From: Nitrospinae bacterium RIFCSPLOWO2_12_FULL_45_22
Lineage (GTDB): Bacteria > 2-12-FULL-45-22
Reading direction: 5' to 3'
Assembly (NCBI GenBank): GCA_001803565.1
Contig: MHDQ01000051.1
Location: forward strand, 601-8,988
DNA: 8,388 bases
Within the stretch, counting starts at the first letter, position 1. Every line of letters starts with the position of its first letter. This document shows, in pieces, positions 354-6,501 of the stretch. The notes under the pieces were generated by a model. It ran no database searches. It was not told the origin of the DNA and saw only the letters and a list, made by a program, of their open reading frames with translations. The translations under genes were made by a program, and so were the position numbers.

Positions 354-1229
354 CTATGCGAGTACACCATATTCCTTGAGGGTAGCTTGTAGGCGGTTCA
401 GGTTGGGCTCGGCCATAGAGCATAATGGCAAGCGCAATTCGCCGCTGATCTTACCCATTAAAGCTAAGGCGGTCTTTACTGGTATCGGGTTAGTCTCCAG
501 GAACATAGCGTCATTTAAGGGCCTTAATTTGTACTGTAGGGCCTTTGCCCTAGCCAGGTTACCCCCCTGGAAGGCTCGCACCAGCTCCGCCATATCGCGG
601 GGCGCTACATTGGCCACTACGGAGATTACCCCTTTACCGCCTACAGCCAGGATAGGCAAAACTAAAAAATCATCGCCCGAGAGGACAATAAAGTCTTCGC
701 CACACAGGGCAATAATATCTATTATTTGCTGGAGGGAACCCGAGGCCTCTTTTATCCCCACAATATTCCCTATCTTAGCCAGGCGTGCTACTGTAGAAGG
801 AAGGAGATTAACGCCGGTACGGCTGGGGACATTATAGAGAATGATCGGTATTTCTACTTCAGAGGCAACCTTGCAGAAGTGCTGATACAAACCCTCCTGG
901 GTAGGTTTGTTATAATAGGGCGTGATCATCAGGGACGCATCGGCACCAGCCACTAGTGCATGTTGGGTAAGACTAACGGCTTCTTCCGTAGAATTAGACC
1001 CGGTACCGGCTATTACGGGTACCAGCTTCCTTACCGCATCAACGGTTATCTCAACCAGGTGTTGATGCTCTTTATGGGACAACGTAGCGGACTCACCAGT
1101 AGTACCGCAAGGGACAATACCATTCGTCCCATTATCCATCTGATACTCTATCAGTTCTCTTAGCCCTTTCTCATCCACCCTACCATCCCTAAACGGGGTT
1201 ACTAAAGCCACTATTGAACCAGTAAACAT
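354..1229 (-). CDS. dapA: 4-hydroxy-tetrahydrodipicolinate synthase (dihydrodipicolinate synthase)
   Basis: Condenses pyruvate with aspartate semialdehyde, the first committed step of diaminopimelate and lysine synthesis in the cytoplasm. The 291-residue length is normal. Visible family residues are the Schiff-base Lys160 in GIKEASG, Tyr132 in LYNVPSRTG, the Thr43/Thr44 pair in CGTTGESATL, Arg137 and Tyr106. Positions matching the E. coli lysine-binding site are also kept (Ser47, Ala48, His52, His55, Asn79, Glu83, Tyr105), so feedback inhibition by lysine is likely. I chose ATG at 1229 rather than the adjacent TTG at 1232 because GGAGG (1243-1239) lies nine bases before it and the protein then begins MFTGSIVALVTPF as in relatives. 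It follows dapF after 103 nt, a gap holding a facing heptad-repeat element. No clear intrinsic terminator follows the TAG stop on this strand. Confidence 0.97.
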   Translation of the reverse strand: MFTGSIVALVTPFRDGRVDEKGLRELIEYQMDNGTNGIVPCGTTGESATLSHKEHQHLVEITVDAVRKLVPVIAGTGSNSTEEAVSLTQHALVAGADASLMITPYYNKPTQEGLYQHFCKVASEVEIPIILYNVPSRTGVNLLPSTVARLAKIGNIVGIKEASGSLQQIIDIIALCGEDFIVLSGDDFLVLPILAVGGKGVISVVANVAPRDMAELVRAFQGGNLARAKALQYKLRPLNDAMFLETNPIPVKTALALMGKISGELRLPLCSMAEPNLNRLQATLKEYGVLA

Positions 1230-1253
1230 CAAGCTGTTCCTCCCTACCTAGTT

Positions 1254-1336
1254 GTCAGAGGCCAGGGGTCGGGGATCAGGAAAAGGATAATTCTCTCTAG
1301 CGATCTCTGTTCCCTGAACACTGATAACTGATTTAT
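1254..1336. repeat. Facing heptad-repeat element between dapF and dapA
   Basis: Two arrays of degenerate 7-mers point at each other. On the plus strand (1254-1288): GTCAGAG, GCCAGGG, GTCGGGG, ATCAGGA, AAAGGAT. On the minus strand, reading inward from about 1332: ATCAGTT, ATCAGTG, TTCAGGG, AACAGAG, ATCGCTA. The shared theme is RTCAGRG. The arms can pair imperfectly, roughly 19 of 28 positions in the simplest register. The outer end of the right arm touches the dapF stop codon. It shares its layout, but not its 7-mer, with elements at 3584-3661 and 5001-5098. Confidence 0.6.
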
Positions 1337-2157
1337 TTAAGGGCTTCTTCCCAGAGATAGCCCTGATAAATAACCTTAGCCGGCCCTTCCAGATATACTT
1401 CCGAAAATCCTTCGCCCGTCCTTTGAAAAAATATAGTCAATACCTCACCACCATAAGTCTCTACCGCCACAGGAGAGCCCATACCTTTCCAAACAGAGGC
1501 CATTAAAGCGCTGGCTATTGCCCCGGTACCGCAGGCCATAGTCTCATCCTCTACCCCCCGCTCATAAGTCCGGATAGCGATCCTATCGGGGCTTATGATC
1601 TTGACAAAATCGGCATTAGTCCCAGCCGGAGAGAATTCAGGGTGGAAGCGGATCTGTTTCCCTACTTCTACCACGGGATACTTCGCAAGATCATCTACCA
1701 GACAGACCAGGTGGGGCACACCGGTATTAATAAATCCCCCCTGGATAGACCGATCTTTCAGGCTCAAGTCTATCTGCGGTCGGAGATTGTATGGCTCAGT
1801 CATCTTTAGTTTCACGCCGGTAGTGGTTACCTCGGCCTGGATGATCCCGGCCTGGGTCTCAAAAGATAGCTGGGCAGGGGCTATCCCCAACAGATGGGCC
1901 AATTTAGCTACACATCGCCCACCATTGCCGCACATCTCTGCCTCACTGCCATCGGCATTAAAAAACCTCCATTTAAAATGGGCTCTAGTAGAAGATTCTA
2001 TCAGTATCAGACCATCCGCCCCCACTGAGAAGCGCCGGCGGCAGACTTGCTGGACAAAAGGCCGTATGCCCTCGCTATCCAACCCCTTATTCCGATCATC
2101 TATGAGGATAAAATCATTCCCACTGGCACTCATTTTATAGAACAGTATCTTTTGCAT
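1333..2157 (-). CDS. dapF: Diaminopimelate epimerase
   Basis: Interconverts LL- and meso-diaminopimelate, supplying meso-DAP for peptidoglycan and as the substrate of LysA. The reaction is PLP-independent and uses two cysteines as acid and base. Both are visible: Cys76 in EMCGNGGRC and Cys209 in ETMACGTGA. The N-terminal ASGNDFILID (Asn14) and Asn145/Asn181 regions also match the family. The length, 274 residues, is usual and the gene is intact. ATG at 2157 is preceded by a modest AAGGGA about ten bases upstream, which can be paired in a small hairpin. It lies 86 nt after lysA and 103 nt before dapA. A DapF implies that LL-DAP is made, so the organism uses an aminotransferase (DapL) or an acylated-intermediate route rather than direct dehydrogenase formation of meso-DAP. 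Confidence 0.97.
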   Translation of the reverse strand: MQKILFYKMSASGNDFILIDDRNKGLDSEGIRPFVQQVCRRRFSVGADGLILIESSTRAHFKWRFFNADGSEAEMCGNGGRCVAKLAHLLGIAPAQLSFETQAGIIQAEVTTTGVKLKMTEPYNLRPQIDLSLKDRSIQGGFINTGVPHLVCLVDDLAKYPVVEVGKQIRFHPEFSPAGTNADFVKIISPDRIAIRTYERGVEDETMACGTGAIASALMASVWKGMGSPVAVETYGGEVLTIFFQRTGEGFSEVYLEGPAKVIYQGYLWEEALK

Positions 2158-2167
2158 GAGTCTCTTC

Positions 2168-2215
2168 CCTTACGTTGGTCTGGGCAAGGCATCTATTATG
2201 CAGAGCAAGCTCTAC
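2168..2215 (-). promoter_or_regulatory. Two-hairpin leader of dapF
   Basis: In the 86-nt lysA-dapF spacer the mRNA can form GUAGAG-CUUG-CUCUGC (2215-2200) and then CCUUGC, a ten-base loop and GUAAGG (2189-2168). Each has six pairs and one G-U pair that exists only on the minus strand, which fits an RNA role. The second stem covers the AAGG of the probable dapF ribosome-binding site. The spacer has no TTGACA-like box, so dapF is probably co-transcribed with lysA. Confidence 0.3.
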
Positions 2216-2243
2216 CACTACAGTCTACAAAACAGCTTAATGA

Positions 2244-3506
2244 CTATCTTAAGAAAGCTGGGATCGCTTCGCCCCGAATAAGGTCTTCATAGCTCTCTCT
2301 TTGACGGATAACATAATATTGGCCATCTTTTACCAGGACCTCCGCTACCTTAGGGCGCGAATTATAATTAGAGGCCATAGAGAAACCATAAGCCCCGGCT
2401 GACATAACCGCCAATAAATCGCCCGCTGAACAAACCGGTAAGGGCCGATCCCTGGCCAAAAAATCGCCACTCTCACAGATAGGTCCGACCACATCTACCG
2501 TGTGAGTTGTAGCTTGCTTATCTTTTAGCATTACATGCTGGATAGCCTGATAAGAGCCATAGAGGCTAGGGCGGATCAGATCATTCATACCACCATCTAC
2601 GATAACAAAATTCTTTTCAGTAGTGGATTTAGTATAGAGCACCTGGGTAATCAGGACCCCGGCATTGCCTACTATAACCCGTCCGGGCTCAAAGATGACC
2701 GTACAATTCATTTTTGCCATATGGGGAGTAAGGGCTTCAGCAAGCTTTTGGGGATGGGGTGGCTCTTCATCGTTATAGGTTATTCCTAATCCTCCCCCCA
2801 GGTCCAGATATTGAACCACTATATCTTCCCTTTTGAGCTCATCCAGTAGATAGGCAAGTCTTTTTACTGCTTCAACAAAGGGCCCGGTCTCGGTTATCTG
2901 GGAGCCGATATGGGAATGAATACCGAGAATTTGCAGATTTTTTGCTTTTTTAGCTAATCTGTAATGATCCAGGGCTTTAGAGATATCTATCCCAAACTTG
3001 TTTTTCTTGAGCCCAGTAGATATATAGGGATGAGTCTGAGGGTCTACATCTGGATTTACCCGTAAGGCAATAGGGGCCTTTATTCCCATTTGCCCTGCCA
3101 ACTCATCAATGGCCTCGAGCTCCTGGCCGGACTCTACATTGAACATTAAGATACCCGCTTCTAAGGCATATCTTATCTCTTCCTTACTCTTGCCTACACC
3201 GGCATAGACAATCTTCTGGGGATCAGCGCCGGCCTTTAATGCCCGGTATAGTTCGCCGCCTGAGACTACATCTAACCCTGCCCCTTCTCTAATGAATATC
3301 CGCAGGATAGCCAGGTTAGAATTGGCCTTCATAGCAAAGCATATCAGGTGAGGTATACCCTGGAAAGCAGTATCAAAGGCCAGGTAATGACGAAGTAATG
3401 TCTTATAGCTATAGAGATAGAAAGGAGTTTTTACTTCCTGGGCGATTTTTAGGACAGAGATCTCCTCACAGTATAATTCTCCATTTCGGTAATGAAAGAA
3501 ATGCAT
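2244..3506 (-). CDS. lysA: Diaminopimelate decarboxylase
   Basis: Removes CO2 from meso-diaminopimelate to give L-lysine, a PLP enzyme of the alanine-racemase fold type III, cytoplasmic. The 420-residue length is normal. Visible motifs are the PLP lysine Lys60 in CFAMKANSN, HSHIGSQI (197-204), the phosphate-binding glycines DLGGGLGI (235-242), EPGR (273-276), the active-site Cys344 in GPICESGD contributed across the dimer, and Tyr373 in GAYGFSMASNYNSRP. ATG at 3506 has AGGGG eight bases upstream. The gene is set apart from the lipoprotein gene by 226 nt carrying its own promoter and a heptad-repeat hairpin within a leader of about 180 nt, so it probably begins the lysine part of the cluster as a separately controlled unit (lysA-dapF-dapA). 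Confidence 0.97.
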   Translation of the reverse strand: MHFFHYRNGELYCEEISVLKIAQEVKTPFYLYSYKTLLRHYLAFDTAFQGIPHLICFAMKANSNLAILRIFIREGAGLDVVSGGELYRALKAGADPQKIVYAGVGKSKEEIRYALEAGILMFNVESGQELEAIDELAGQMGIKAPIALRVNPDVDPQTHPYISTGLKKNKFGIDISKALDHYRLAKKAKNLQILGIHSHIGSQITETGPFVEAVKRLAYLLDELKREDIVVQYLDLGGGLGITYNDEEPPHPQKLAEALTPHMAKMNCTVIFEPGRVIVGNAGVLITQVLYTKSTTEKNFVIVDGGMNDLIRPSLYGSYQAIQHVMLKDKQATTHTVDVVGPICESGDFLARDRPLPVCSAGDLLAVMSAGAYGFSMASNYNSRPKVAEVLVKDGQYYVIRQRESYEDLIRGEAIPAFLR

Positions 3507-3583
3507 AGTTTAAACCCCTGCTCCTCGGCAAAATTTGGGTAAGTGAGCTTTATCTGCCACGAAGGCATGAAAACACCTAGAGA

Positions 3584-3661
3584 GCGTAAAACGCAAAGCT
3601 AAAAGTGCAAAGCTGAGGACTAATCACCTTAGTTTTACCTTTTGCGCTTTACGCTTTGAGC
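3584..3661. repeat. Facing heptad-repeat element in the lysA leader
   Basis: Five 7-mers on the plus strand (3584-3618): GCGTAAA, ACGCAAA, GCTAAAA, GTGCAAA, GCTGAGG. Five on the minus strand reading inward from 3661 to 3627: GCTCAAA, GCGTAAA, GCGCAAA, AGGTAAA, ACTAAGG. Only eight bases separate the arms. Both arms drift in the same way, from GCGTAAA-like outside to an AGG-ending unit inside, so the element is symmetrical beyond its 7-bp period. The AAA/TTT part of the four outer heptad pairs matches throughout and the innermost pair matches fully if G-U pairs are allowed, giving an imperfect stem of about 35 bp in the lysA transcript. Confidence 0.65.
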
Positions 3662-3694
3662 CTATTAGTTACTTAGAGTCTGAATGGTAACAAG

Positions 3695-3723
3695 AATGTA
3701 GCATAGGAGAGGATTTGTGTCAA
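3695..3723 (-). promoter_or_regulatory. Probable sigma-70-type promoter for lysA-dapF-dapA
   Basis: A consensus -35 TTGACA (3723-3718), a 17-bp spacer and a -10 TACATT (3700-3695, four of six consensus bases) lie just after the lipoprotein stop codon. Transcription would begin near 3688, leaving a leader of about 180 nt before lysA that contains the heptad hairpin. Confidence 0.5.
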
Positions 3724-3731
3724 ACCTGACA
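3718..3731. promoter_or_regulatory. Operator-like palindrome over the lysA -35 box
   Basis: TGTCA-AACC-TGACA is a perfect 5-bp inverted repeat with a 4-bp centre. It contains the -35 hexamer of the lysA promoter, a position where a dimeric repressor would block RNA polymerase. No regulator gene is present in the window, and a 5-bp arm could occur by chance. Confidence 0.25.
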
Positions 3732-3732
3732 A

Positions 3733-5088
3733 CTATTCTCTCTTTATAGGGAATACCTGTATTTTTTCAGAGAAAGGACTTTCATTAGGGGGCGAGGCAT
3801 TATCTACCGCGGTAATCGCATAAAAATATACCTGGCCAGGCTGAATATCCTGGTCTCTGAAAGTCGTTTCAGAGATGGGTGAGGTAGTTATCCGCTGATA
3901 ATGCTCTTCAGTAGTACTTTTTCGGTATACATAATATCCCAAAAGATCTGGCTCAGAATTAGGATTCCAGTTCAGGACAATGCCGTCTCCTTTATTAACA
4001 CCTACTAACCCCTGAGGCGCCAGAGGGGGATAAGTATCCCGTAGGGTAACGGCTACCTCATTAGAAGCCGGACCTTCATGCCACGGAAGGGCATCTGTAG
4101 TAACTGCCCGCACTACATAGACATAAGTCTCTCCATTAGTTAACCCGGTATCTACATAAGAATTGTCTTTTATTAGCTCTTCATTTAAGGGATAGAAGGG
4201 ATAATCACTATCTCCCCCTCCTTTTCTATAAAGGTTAAAACCCTCCAATTCTGTTAGCGGAGTTCCATCAACTCGCGCCCTGGGAGGGGACCAGGCCAAC
4301 CATGCTTTACCTTCACCCCGGATAGCAACGAGGTTCGTTGGTGGGTCAGGGGTGGGCGAGAGCCATACCTGAGCAATATTTGATGGCTGACTGGGCAGAC
4401 CACTCTTGTCAAAACTGATTACCAGATAGCTATAGCCTCTATCAGCCTTGAGCCCTTCGGGGAACTTAGATAAACTTCTGTCCTTATAAATTACATAATC
4501 ATCTTCCAGCTCCACTCCTTCCAACCTCTCTAACAATATTTGATCAATCCGTTCGTATCCTACCAGGTATTCATCCTCACCCCTTTCCTGGATTGAGGGG
4601 AGCTTGATAAAATCGGCAGGCTCTTCCTGGCCTAGATGCTGAACATCTTTTTCATCTTTATCTGGCCCCTCAGCTTCCAGGGCTGATTGTGGTTCCTCCA
4701 GGGTATTAATAAGCTCTTCTGTCTCTACCTCGGTTTCCAGGGAGTAATCTATCTGCTTATCAGCCGGTACAGAACGATACAAGGGAATATATGCCTCTTC
4801 TTCGGTGTCCCCTTGTTCTTTTCTATAGACTTCAAAACCATCGAGGTCTAATAGCTTGGTATCATCCACCCGCCTGGTAGGAATAGCCCATTTTAGAATA
4901 ACCTCATTATTTTTGGTATAGACTTCCAGGTCAGTGATCTTCTCCGGGGCAAACTCTTCGGGGGGTAAGGGTGGGGCCTTGATCCCACAACTTATAATAA
5001 GCAGTAAGCAGTAAGCAGTAAGCAGTAAGGAGTAAAAACTATTTCGTGCTAATGGTCTACTGATCACCGCAAACGGCTTACAGCTCAC
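3733..5088 (-). CDS. Lipoprotein with three fibronectin type III domains and an acidic insertion
   Basis: A 451-residue predicted envelope lipoprotein of unknown function. After a short basic start, a hydrophobic stretch (19-32) ends in the lipobox IISC with Cys34 as lipidation site, followed by GIKAPPLPPEE, like the CG-x-K-x-P-x-x-P start of LptM-type small lipoproteins. Three FN3-like units follow: residues 45-242 (with 'LDGFEVYRK' and 'GYSYLVISFDKSG' strands), 246-349 and 352-447. The first is split by a Glu/Asp-rich insert at about 105-205. FN3 units usually bind proteins or sugars or act as spacers. GTG at 5088 follows GAGGAG by six bases and is three bases after the argH stop; GTG at 5067 is a possible alternative start. 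Codons 19-29 consist of 7-bp repeats of the element at 5001-5098, so the signal-peptide core appears to be repeat-derived. Lipoproteins of this kind next to argH are, as far as I recall, common in several anaerobic lineages. Confidence 0.8.
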   Translation of the reverse strand: MSCKPFAVISRPLARNSFYSLLLTAYCLLLIISCGIKAPPLPPEEFAPEKITDLEVYTKNNEVILKWAIPTRRVDDTKLLDLDGFEVYRKEQGDTEEEAYIPLYRSVPADKQIDYSLETEVETEELINTLEEPQSALEAEGPDKDEKDVQHLGQEEPADFIKLPSIQERGEDEYLVGYERIDQILLERLEGVELEDDYVIYKDRSLSKFPEGLKADRGYSYLVISFDKSGLPSQPSNIAQVWLSPTPDPPTNLVAIRGEGKAWLAWSPPRARVDGTPLTELEGFNLYRKGGGDSDYPFYPLNEELIKDNSYVDTGLTNGETYVYVVRAVTTDALPWHEGPASNEVAVTLRDTYPPLAPQGLVGVNKGDGIVLNWNPNSEPDLLGYYVYRKSTTEEHYQRITTSPISETTFRDQDIQPGQVYFYAITAVDNASPPNESPFSEKIQVFPIKRE

Positions 5089-5098
5089 TGCTCACTCC
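5001..5098. repeat. Facing heptad-repeat element spanning the argH stop and lipoprotein start
   Basis: On the plus strand 5001-5035 holds GCAGTAA four times in perfect tandem, then GGAGTAA. On the minus strand, reading inward from 5098 to 5057: GGAGTGA, GCAGTGA, GCTGTAA, GCCGTTT, GCGGTGA, TCAGTAG. Both arms share the theme GCAGTRA and can pair over about 35 bases, with 29 of 35 positions matching when G-U pairs are counted. Unlike the other two elements, almost all of this one is coding: it carries the last codon and stop of argH, part of the SD and the start codon of the lipoprotein, and its signal-peptide core. Confidence 0.7.
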
Positions 5099-6489
5099 TC
5101 ACGGCCACTCTTTTGGGCCCTTAATGCCTGGACCCGCCTCAATATATTCTCTTTTGCGGTACCACCATAAGCCTTTTTACTTTCTATAGCTTTTTCCACG
5201 GAAAGTCGCTGAAAGAGGTCAGAGCCAAATTCCTGCGCAAAGGCTTTATATTCCTCGAGAGATAGTTCCCGAAGGGTTTTTTTGTTCTCCAGGCAAAAAT
5301 TCACTAACTTACCTACGGCCGCATGGGCCGTTCTAAAGGGGACATTTTTGCCCACCAGATAGTCTACCAATTCTGTTGCCAACATAAACTCATCCTGGCT
5401 GGCCGCGGCCATAACTTCTCTGTTTGGCCGGACATTCTCCAGGAAACGGTTAAGGACCTTTAGGGATTTTTTTATGGTATTAGCAGTATCGAATAAAGGT
5501 TCCTTATCTTCCTGTAGGTCCTTATTATAGGAGAGGGGCAGGGCCTTCATAACGGTTAATAGGGCCATCAGGCTGCCATATACCCGGCCGGTCTTGCCCC
5601 GGATAAGCTCTGGTATGTCAGGGTTTTTCTTATGAGGCATGAGGCTACTGCCAGTGCAGAAGGCATCTGCTATAGTAATAAAATTGAATTCCGCTGAAGA
5701 CCATAACACCAACTCTTCACAAAACCTGCTTAGATGCATCATCAGGATAGCAGAATGGGCCACAAACTCTATCACAAAATCCCTATCACTGACACTGTCT
5801 ATACTATTGGTAGATACAGCAGAAAAATTTAGCAGTTCTGCGACATATTGCCGGTCTATGGGCAGAGAGGTACCCGCTAACGCCCCGCTGCCCAGAGGCA
5901 TAATATCTACTCTTTTGAGACCATCCAGGTAGCGCTGTCTGTCCCGCTCCAGCATATCAAAATAAGCCAGCAGTTGATGAGAGAAGAGGACGGGTTGGGC
6001 CCGCTGCAGATGGGTATAGCCGGGCATTACACAATCAATATAATCTTCTGCCATATGGAGCAAGGTGTTTTGTAGGGCAGTAGTACCTCTTTCTATCTCC
6101 TGGATAGTATCTCTGAGATAGAGCCTTATATCCAGGGCTATCTGATCGTTACGGCTGCGGGCAGTATGGAGTTTCTTTCCTACTTCCCCTATCTTTTCTA
6201 TCAGCCTATGCTCAATATGCATATGGATATCTTCTAGGGCCGGGTCAAACTTAAAACTACCCGCTTCTATTTCCTGCTGGATATCTTTTAACCCCTTGAT
6301 AATAGCCTGGGTATCCGCATCAGAAATAATCCTGACTTTGGCTAACATCTGAGCATGGGCAATACTCCCCTCTATATCATATTTATAGAGAACCTTATCA
6401 AACGATATAGAGGCCGAGAATTCCTCTACCAGCTTATCCGTCTCCTGGGTAAAGCGTCCTGACCAAAGTTTAGAAGACTTTTTGACCAT
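5092..6489 (-). CDS. argH: Argininosuccinate lyase
   Basis: Splits argininosuccinate into arginine and fumarate, the last step of arginine synthesis, as a cytoplasmic homotetramer of the fumarase/aspartase superfamily. With ATG at 6489 the protein has 465 residues, the usual size, and opens KLWSGRFTQETDKLVEEF as in relatives. Conserved regions are TARSRNDQ (109-116), GYTHLQRAQP with catalytic His160, and the signature loop GSSLMPHKKNPD (280-291) carrying the catalytic serine. The TTG at 6501 is a poorer start because it directly adjoins the SD GGAGG (6506-6502); the ATG stands twelve bases from it. The gene follows the racemase by 17 nt and precedes the lipoprotein by three. Its last codons (GREE and stop) run into the heptad-repeat element. 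No other arginine gene is in the window. Confidence 0.97.
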   Translation of the reverse strand: MVKKSSKLWSGRFTQETDKLVEEFSASISFDKVLYKYDIEGSIAHAQMLAKVRIISDADTQAIIKGLKDIQQEIEAGSFKFDPALEDIHMHIEHRLIEKIGEVGKKLHTARSRNDQIALDIRLYLRDTIQEIERGTTALQNTLLHMAEDYIDCVMPGYTHLQRAQPVLFSHQLLAYFDMLERDRQRYLDGLKRVDIMPLGSGALAGTSLPIDRQYVAELLNFSAVSTNSIDSVSDRDFVIEFVAHSAILMMHLSRFCEELVLWSSAEFNFITIADAFCTGSSLMPHKKNPDIPELIRGKTGRVYGSLMALLTVMKALPLSYNKDLQEDKEPLFDTANTIKKSLKVLNRFLENVRPNREVMAAASQDEFMLATELVDYLVGKNVPFRTAHAAVGKLVNFCLENKKTLRELSLEEYKAFAQEFGSDLFQRLSVEKAIESKKAYGGTAKENILRRVQALRAQKSGREE

Positions 6490-6501
6490 ACGGAATAGCA
6501 A

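Follow-up and report, generated by a model that had tools for sequence, protein, structure and literature searches.

Facing arrays of seven-base repeats at three gene junctions of a Nitrospinae genome and their probable relation to small hairpin elements with PF05635 genes

The locus and its three repeat elements

The window analysed here is the whole of an 8,388-base stretch (G000:C51:601-8988; contig MHDQ01000051.1) of the 3.67-Mb metagenome-assembled genome of Nitrospinae bacterium RIFCSPLOWO2_12_FULL_45_22, which consists of 321 contigs. All of its genes lie on the − strand: dapA, dapF, lysA, a gene for an FN3-domain lipoprotein, argH, an Asp/Glu racemase family gene, a BadF/BadG-type ATPase gene and a chorismate mutase gene. 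Three of the junctions hold small features, here called elements 1, 2 and 3, that are built of inward-facing tandem arrays of seven-base units. The original prediction had described facing arrays at these junctions, and they are present where it put them, with small corrections to the coordinates and with element 2 larger than described. The features of the region are listed below (ORF, open reading frame).

354..1232, − strand: dapA (PF00701), host gene downstream of element 1
1254..1281, + strand: element 1, left arm; degenerate heptamers GTCAGAG, GCCAGGG, GTCGGGG and ATCAGGA between dapF (upstream) and dapA, read from the sequence
1305..1332, − strand: element 1, right arm, facing; ATCAGTT, ATCAGTG, TTCAGGG and AACAGAG on the − strand, read from the sequence
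1333..2157, − strand: dapF (PF01678), host gene upstream of element 1
2244..3506, − strand: lysA (PF02784, PF00278), host gene adjoining element 2
3556..3580, + strand: left arm of the outer hairpin around element 2; units of ~9 bp (GCCACGAAGGCATGAAAACACCTAG; family GCCACNAAGNCACNAAGACACCAAG), from the alignment of 15 genome copies
about 3581..3661, no strand: element 2, inner hairpin of 7-bp units, theme GCGYAAA / GCTAAAA / GTGCAAA, from copy alignment and fold
3662..3691, − strand: right arm of the outer hairpin around element 2, degenerate, from the alignment of 15 genome copies
3733..5088, − strand: FN3 lipoprotein ORF (PF00041 and translation), N-terminus within element 3
4998..5035, + strand: element 3, left arm; five units of GCAGTAA, from Tandem Repeats Finder, autocorrelation, translation and the genome-wide family
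about 5073..5103, − strand: element 3, right arm, facing; theme GCAGTGA on the − strand, holding the argH stop and the GTG start of the lipoprotein ORF
5092..6501, − strand: argH (PF00206, PF14698), final codons and stop within element 3

All three elements lie between protein genes and not in an rRNA helix, their terminal inverted repeats form a stem that includes the heptamers (Tandem Repeats Finder, autocorrelation and RNA folding), and there is no ORF in the loop. An Rfam search of the window gave no hit. The RNA fold z-scores on the best strand are −4.3 for element 1 (+ strand), −4.2 for element 2 and −4.9 for element 3 (− strand). Tandem Repeats Finder reports a period of 7 in both arms of element 3. 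Autocorrelation there gives 27 matches in 28 positions at lag 7, and lags 4–6, 8–13 and 15 reach no more than 18. The other two elements are too degenerate for autocorrelation alone, which we rejected as proof of them; the period by itself is not significant there. Their support is the inverted complementarity of the arms, to which element 2 adds its copies elsewhere in the genome.

These copies number approximately 18, are dispersed in the genome and are ~80–91 % identical (mostly 82–91 %), with further partial matches. The greater size of element 2 comes from an outer inverted pair of ~9-bp units, which holds the 7-bp hairpin in its loop: about ten of the 15 aligned copies lie within such a pair (GCCACNAAGNCACNAAG), three lie within another 7-bp pair whose theme resembles that of element 1, and in the window copy the outer pair is still traceable at 3556-3580 and 3662-3691. 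Dozens of compact hairpins across the genome have the unit of element 3, G[CG][AC]GT[AG]A, several of them within an outer pair of ~10-bp units (CGCAGATNNA), while the relatives of element 1 elsewhere in the genome are weak ones only. Of 16 inner hairpins in this genome, five have outer flanks that are complementary; in mismatched pairings of flanks this was so for 1 to 4 of 87, at scores of 9–12. Such nesting, with a 7-bp hairpin placed in the loop of one built of 9- or 10-bp units, is also seen, besides the element 2 copies, at loci L004, L007, L009 and L022.

Element 3 is an insertion making new gene ends. Its left arm, read on the − strand, codes approximately residues 18–30 of the FN3 lipoprotein ORF, and over window positions 4989-5092 (− strand) the element supplies the predicted hydrophobic core of the signal peptide (SLLLTAYCLLLIISCG), the GTG start of the same ORF and the stop codon of argH.

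Abundance of facing arrays in the genome

A scan of the genome for a 7-bp period and for facing arrays had been proposed as a check, and was made on a sample of every third contig from C3 to C180, with at most 20 kb of each (60 contigs, 620 kb). At a threshold of at least 15 of 21 there are 83 period-7 segments, against one in third-order Markov sequence; each of the other periods from 4 to 17 gave 4 to 39 segments, the harmonic 14 excepted. Inverted facing pairs no more than 600 bp apart number 25, of which 19 have period 7 (some of these being neighbouring arrays of one locus, L134) and six have period 8, whereas periods 5, 10 and 11 and the Markov sequence yield no such pair. The facing architecture thus recurs with changing units, as had been supposed, and is not a product of chance. 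Sixty-six of 76 arrays are outside ORFs, although ORFs cover 83.5 % of the sample, and 51 of the 57 intergenic arrays for which both neighbouring genes could be assigned are between genes on the same strand; same-strand gaps make up about three quarters of the gap bases.

Association with PF05635 genes

One facing pair in the sample encloses a 115-residue ORF that matches PF05635, a four-helix-bundle family named '23S rRNA intervening sequence protein' (S23 / 23S rRNA IVP). This genome has nine such genes, all outside the window, and by inspection arrays adjoin every one of them, on both sides in eight cases; in the ninth (L084) the start is near a contig end and there is a right array only. 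Each of the nine loci has a unit of its own, mostly with period 7, although L081, and L082 on one side, have period 8. At a fixed threshold, facing arrays were found at six of eight of these loci, at 19 of 29 PF05635 loci from other bacterial families and at all seven plasmid loci, and they flank the gene in 59 of 77 named bacterial and archaeal loci, mostly with period 7 and sometimes 8 or 9; the named loci include archaeal records as well as Nostoc, Sphaerospermopsis and Microcystis. Control sites shifted by 1.4–1.7 kb within the same named loci had facing arrays in none of 290 cases, and a second control, genes for Y1 transposases, in none of 20. The phage collection gave no PF05635 match with the single query used.

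Several individual loci may be mentioned here. Arrays of 9-bp units surround the PF05635 genes of L095 and L226, so that the period is not strictly seven. At L043 (3271-4014) the arrays around the gene extend into the neighbouring ORFs; one of these, of 267 residues, owes its predicted N-terminus (MFCVLCSVFFVLGSN) to the repeats, which also encode a C-terminal tail of 27 residues (RRQNTEHRVQSTEYRVKSKEQRTKSKE). In genome G009 (L240-L244) the PF05635 matches are oppositely oriented partial pairs a few hundred base pairs apart, with hardly any arrays adjoining. L312 (NZ_CP081930.1) is catalogued as a plasmid of Riemerella and, with lepA and suf genes on it, looks chromosomal; the four-helix-bundle gene there has sufB on one side and an iron-sulfur assembly accessory gene on the other. 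Genes of the GxxExxY family (TIGR04256; L275-L304) were considered as a further class of cargo. Facing arrays of 8–10-bp units such as CCACAGAGGCACAGAGACACAGAG or CGCAGATTACGCAGATT often flank them (six of 30 at the fixed threshold, more by eye), and these genes co-occur with PF05635 over 116 genomes (odds ratio 11).

Gene-less relatives and evidence of mobility

The arms of gene-carrying elements and of the window elements match 38 other places in the 620-kb sample, summed over queries, compared with 0–2 matches for shuffled arms and 0–9 (mostly 0–3) for unit-permuted arms. Eight gene-carrying loci of this genome were used in this search, L082 being left out, and gene-less relatives were found for L078, L079, L081 and L086; arms common to gene-carrying and gene-less forms are therefore known for four of the eight gene-carrying elements and for none of the three window units.

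Transposed copies are seen in other genomes. In G055 the arm-gene-arm unit occurs four times, nearly identical, in unrelated surroundings, and two of these occurrences have a gene-less copy beside them. G030 has two copies that are 98 % identical over the part they share at the start; their terminal inverted repeats agree in 43 of 44 positions, and the gene of the second copy is broken by other DNA. Nostoc-type plasmids provide filled and empty sites whose flanks are 91–97 % identical, and the same four-helix-bundle protein (WP_114080759.1) occurs in two strains. Trichormus plasmid C and a Scytonema plasmid form one set with four others of ~97 % identity: the first two carry an element between two ORFs, and the other four lack it. 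A second set shows two variable junctions. At one of them three plasmids have a filled site and five an empty one; at the other, gene-less arrays of the same unit occur in five plasmids but are missing from four, and in two of the five a second hairpin sits within the first. One plasmid of this second set also has a gene-less hairpin inserted inside the four-helix-bundle gene. A 7-bp target duplication was considered as the source of the 7-bp period and rejected, because the duplications are direct whereas the arms are inverted.

Inheritance of the unit and selection on the protein

The unit theme travels with the protein of the element. At 60–70 % protein identity the similarity between units is 0.66, against 0.51 for composition-matched permuted units, and this excess fades below 50 % protein identity; for pairs below 60 % protein identity the Mantel r is 0.22, a value reached in none of 2000 permutations, kinship among the loci being uncorrected in this figure. 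On the gene strand the units drift around a loose consensus AGGTnnT, and degenerate positions are common to the units of the two arms. The difference between L311 and L318 amounts to 14 bp, exactly two units. The PF05635 protein is under purifying selection, with dN/dS of 0.11–0.12 in comparisons at dS above 1. It has relatives of solved structure (2GSC, 2RLD), and the Xanthomonas S23 protein is a pentameric ring (PMC4990558).

Interpretation and alternative explanations

We consider it likely that the three window features are gene-less members, either non-autonomous or decayed, of a class of small hairpin elements that are mobile and widespread. This reading builds on the observed architecture and families, the transposed copies, the filled and empty sites, the nesting, the inheritance of the unit and the selection on the protein. 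The ends of such an element would be inverted tandem arrays of a 7-bp unit, less often one of 8 or 9 bp, and its full form would have one small PF05635 four-helix-bundle gene between the arms. The protein may recognise the arms, whether in DNA or in RNA, and would then let gene-less copies, the window elements among them, move in trans, with hairpin loops and same-strand gene junctions as preferred or tolerated landing places. After landing, the arrays would change by slippage of whole units, and hairpin-templated correction may keep the arms alike and the arrays periodic.

Several observations weigh against this assignment. About a quarter of the PF05635 genes are without arrays at the threshold used, and the 77 named loci come from a single-protein query and are not a random sample (L164, moreover, duplicates L087). 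L080, L083, L084, L085 and element 1 have no gene-less relative in the 620-kb sample at E≤0.01, and no gene-carrying element with the GCAGTRA unit of element 3 was found in this genome. The filled and empty sites are known from plasmids and there are none for the three window elements themselves; a target duplication of 7–8 bp is seen at two of five plasmid sites (GTAATTAA; ATTCTAA) and none is clear at the other three, and the duplicated ATTCTAA also resembles the array unit. No transposase has been identified.

The identity of the mobilising enzyme is the point on which two alternatives turn. It is possible, although rather unlikely, that the inverted repeat pairs are moved in trans by a Y1 (HUH) transposase in the manner of REPINs (hairpins formed by paired repetitive extragenic palindromic, or REP, sequences), the four-helix-bundle gene being a frequent passenger or helper. 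PF05635 and Y1_Tnp do co-occur, in 34 of 42 against 33 of 74 genomes (n=116; odds ratio 5.3, P=1.7e-4, uncorrected for phylogeny or genome size), with eight PF05635-positive genomes, not all of them complete, lacking a Y1 hit; and insertion into hairpins suits an enzyme that acts on single-stranded DNA, as those of the Y1 family do. RAYT genes (REP-associated tyrosine transposases), however, are typically flanked by REPs, whereas none of the 20 Y1 genes is flanked by facing arrays, and the duplications of 7–8 bp at some sites are ill-suited to Y1 enzymes. Copying of a transcribed hairpin by a reverse transcriptase, aided by a four-helix-bundle protein like the Avd protein of diversity-generating retroelements (DGRs), seems improbable. 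The elements do lie in transcribed gene junctions and, as intervening sequences, in rRNA, and one protein of this genome matches the DGR Avd model weakly (E 7.6e-5), but at 23 bits this match falls below the cut-off of 80; a reverse transcriptase acting in trans is disfavoured by the lack of co-occurrence of RVT_1 with PF05635 (12 of 42 against 21 of 74 of the 116 genomes, odds ratio 1.0). DDE_Tnp_1 likewise shows none (odds ratio 1.2).

The other alternatives dispense with mobility. Host function, with selection at gene ends for the arrays as binding sites or terminators, would fit the stable RNA hairpins and the preponderance of arrays between same-strand genes, and has precedents: the heptamers of Beggiatoaceae have been proposed as post-transcriptional sites (PMC4679880), and the paired tandem hepta- and octamers of Geobacter metallireducens, which are on opposite strands at variable distance and so are alike in layout to the arrays described here, were read as binding sites of a global regulator (PMC2700814). 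We regard this explanation as very doubtful, since same-strand gaps already hold most of the gap bases, presence or absence varies between near-identical plasmids, and one element interrupts a gene (L322). The original prediction had favoured a process that builds or homogenises the 7-bp units locally at gene ends, rather than the spread of one fixed sequence. The local part stands in so far as arrays change by whole units, as between L311 and L318 or in the heptamer number of Coxiella. The denial of spread is contradicted by the dispersed family of element 2 and by the unit of element 3 at dozens of places; arrays are not made anew at each gene end, because there are dispersed families, units transposed as arm-gene-arm in other genomes, filled and empty sites, and themes inherited with the protein. 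Each theme is better read as an element lineage. It is accordingly highly improbable that replication slippage and quasi-palindrome correction turn any gene-end hairpin into 7-bp arrays with no mobile element involved. The degenerate positions shared by both arms would agree with such a process, for which a polymerase-footprint idea of 7-nt slippage is available (PMC4679880), but it predicts neither the element 2 copies at 82–91 % identity, nor the empty sites, the association with PF05635 and the inheritance of the theme, and as the sole process it is already largely refuted. Whole-unit slippage is real, but the main process is the spread of elements.

Relation to known systems

In Coxiella burnetii the 23S rRNA intervening sequence (IVS) has a 28-bp terminal stem with an S23 ORF in its loop, preceded by two to three GACAGAT heptamers whose number differs between strains, and it has been called a selfish element (PMC4990558). 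The mobile hairpin class proposed here is similar in having its PF05635 ORF in the loop of a terminal inverted-repeat stem with heptamers variable in number. It differs from rRNA IVSs, which lie within rRNA helices and are excised by RNase III, in its position between protein genes, its occurrence in many phyla, its gene-less copies, its nesting and its empty sites. Insertions in the rRNA of the candidate phyla radiation also encode this protein, and rRNA insertions there are mostly at the top or base of a stem-loop (PMC11270868). The window features are not themselves rRNA intervening sequences; the class works like these and probably includes them.

With miniature inverted-repeat transposable elements (MITEs) the window features have in common that they are short and gene-less, with terminal inverted repeats, and on the present reading they would likewise be related to a gene-carrying element, but the ends here are tandem arrays of a short unit and the carried gene is no known transposase. 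Dispersed near-identical gene-less copies with terminal inverted repeats, by which a MITE is recognized, were found for element 2, for the arms only of element 3, and not for element 1. The heptanucleotide repeats of cyanobacteria known as STRR (short tandemly repeated repetitive sequences) show a resemblance only. The REPIN and REP-RAYT systems (PMC3116915, PMC3733652) are similar in that short inverted-pair hairpins are dispersed between genes and mobilised in trans; those are without heptamer arrays, and the Y1 genes here are not flanked by the repeats. In the P6b stem-loop of the Nostoc trnL intron, complementary 7-nt repeats are replaced as units, and the part of that account available to us states their origin to be unknown and establishes no link to a gene or mobile element (PMC4476775), whereas heptamer arms on Nostoc plasmids flank PF05635 genes. 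Among intergenic tandem DNA repeats, those of heptamers came out as the most abundant in many prokaryotes when 7,006 genomes were surveyed, with 'no clear clue' to function, and the accessible portion of that survey reports neither facing pairing nor an association with PF05635 (PMC6344855). Nor did any of the accessible literature join intergenic heptamer arrays to PF05635, the subscription literature being mostly beyond the search.

Significance

We tentatively suggest a broader view. In it, mobile hairpin elements of one class, extending across bacteria and archaea, would each have a heptamer 'address' of their own at both ends, recognised by a four-helix-bundle ring protein that is likewise their own. 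Landing in hairpin loops and gene junctions, they may be the main source of the intergenic heptamer arrays of prokaryotes, with rRNA intervening sequences and the Nostoc trnL P6b repeats as special cases. The role of rRNA intervening sequences and of the S23 protein has been described as unclear (PMC4990558), and if the link holds, this puzzle and that of the heptamer repeats would share one answer. The link would be testable, as plasmids of laboratory cyanobacteria carry elements with known empty sites. If true, it would give a concrete role to the large uncharacterised family PF05635 and would show insertions creating new gene ends, such as a repeat-encoded lipoprotein signal peptide. It offers an origin for the unexplained seven-base repeats of bacterial genomes, through an element whose complete form is present in this genome, in very many other bacteria and in some archaea.

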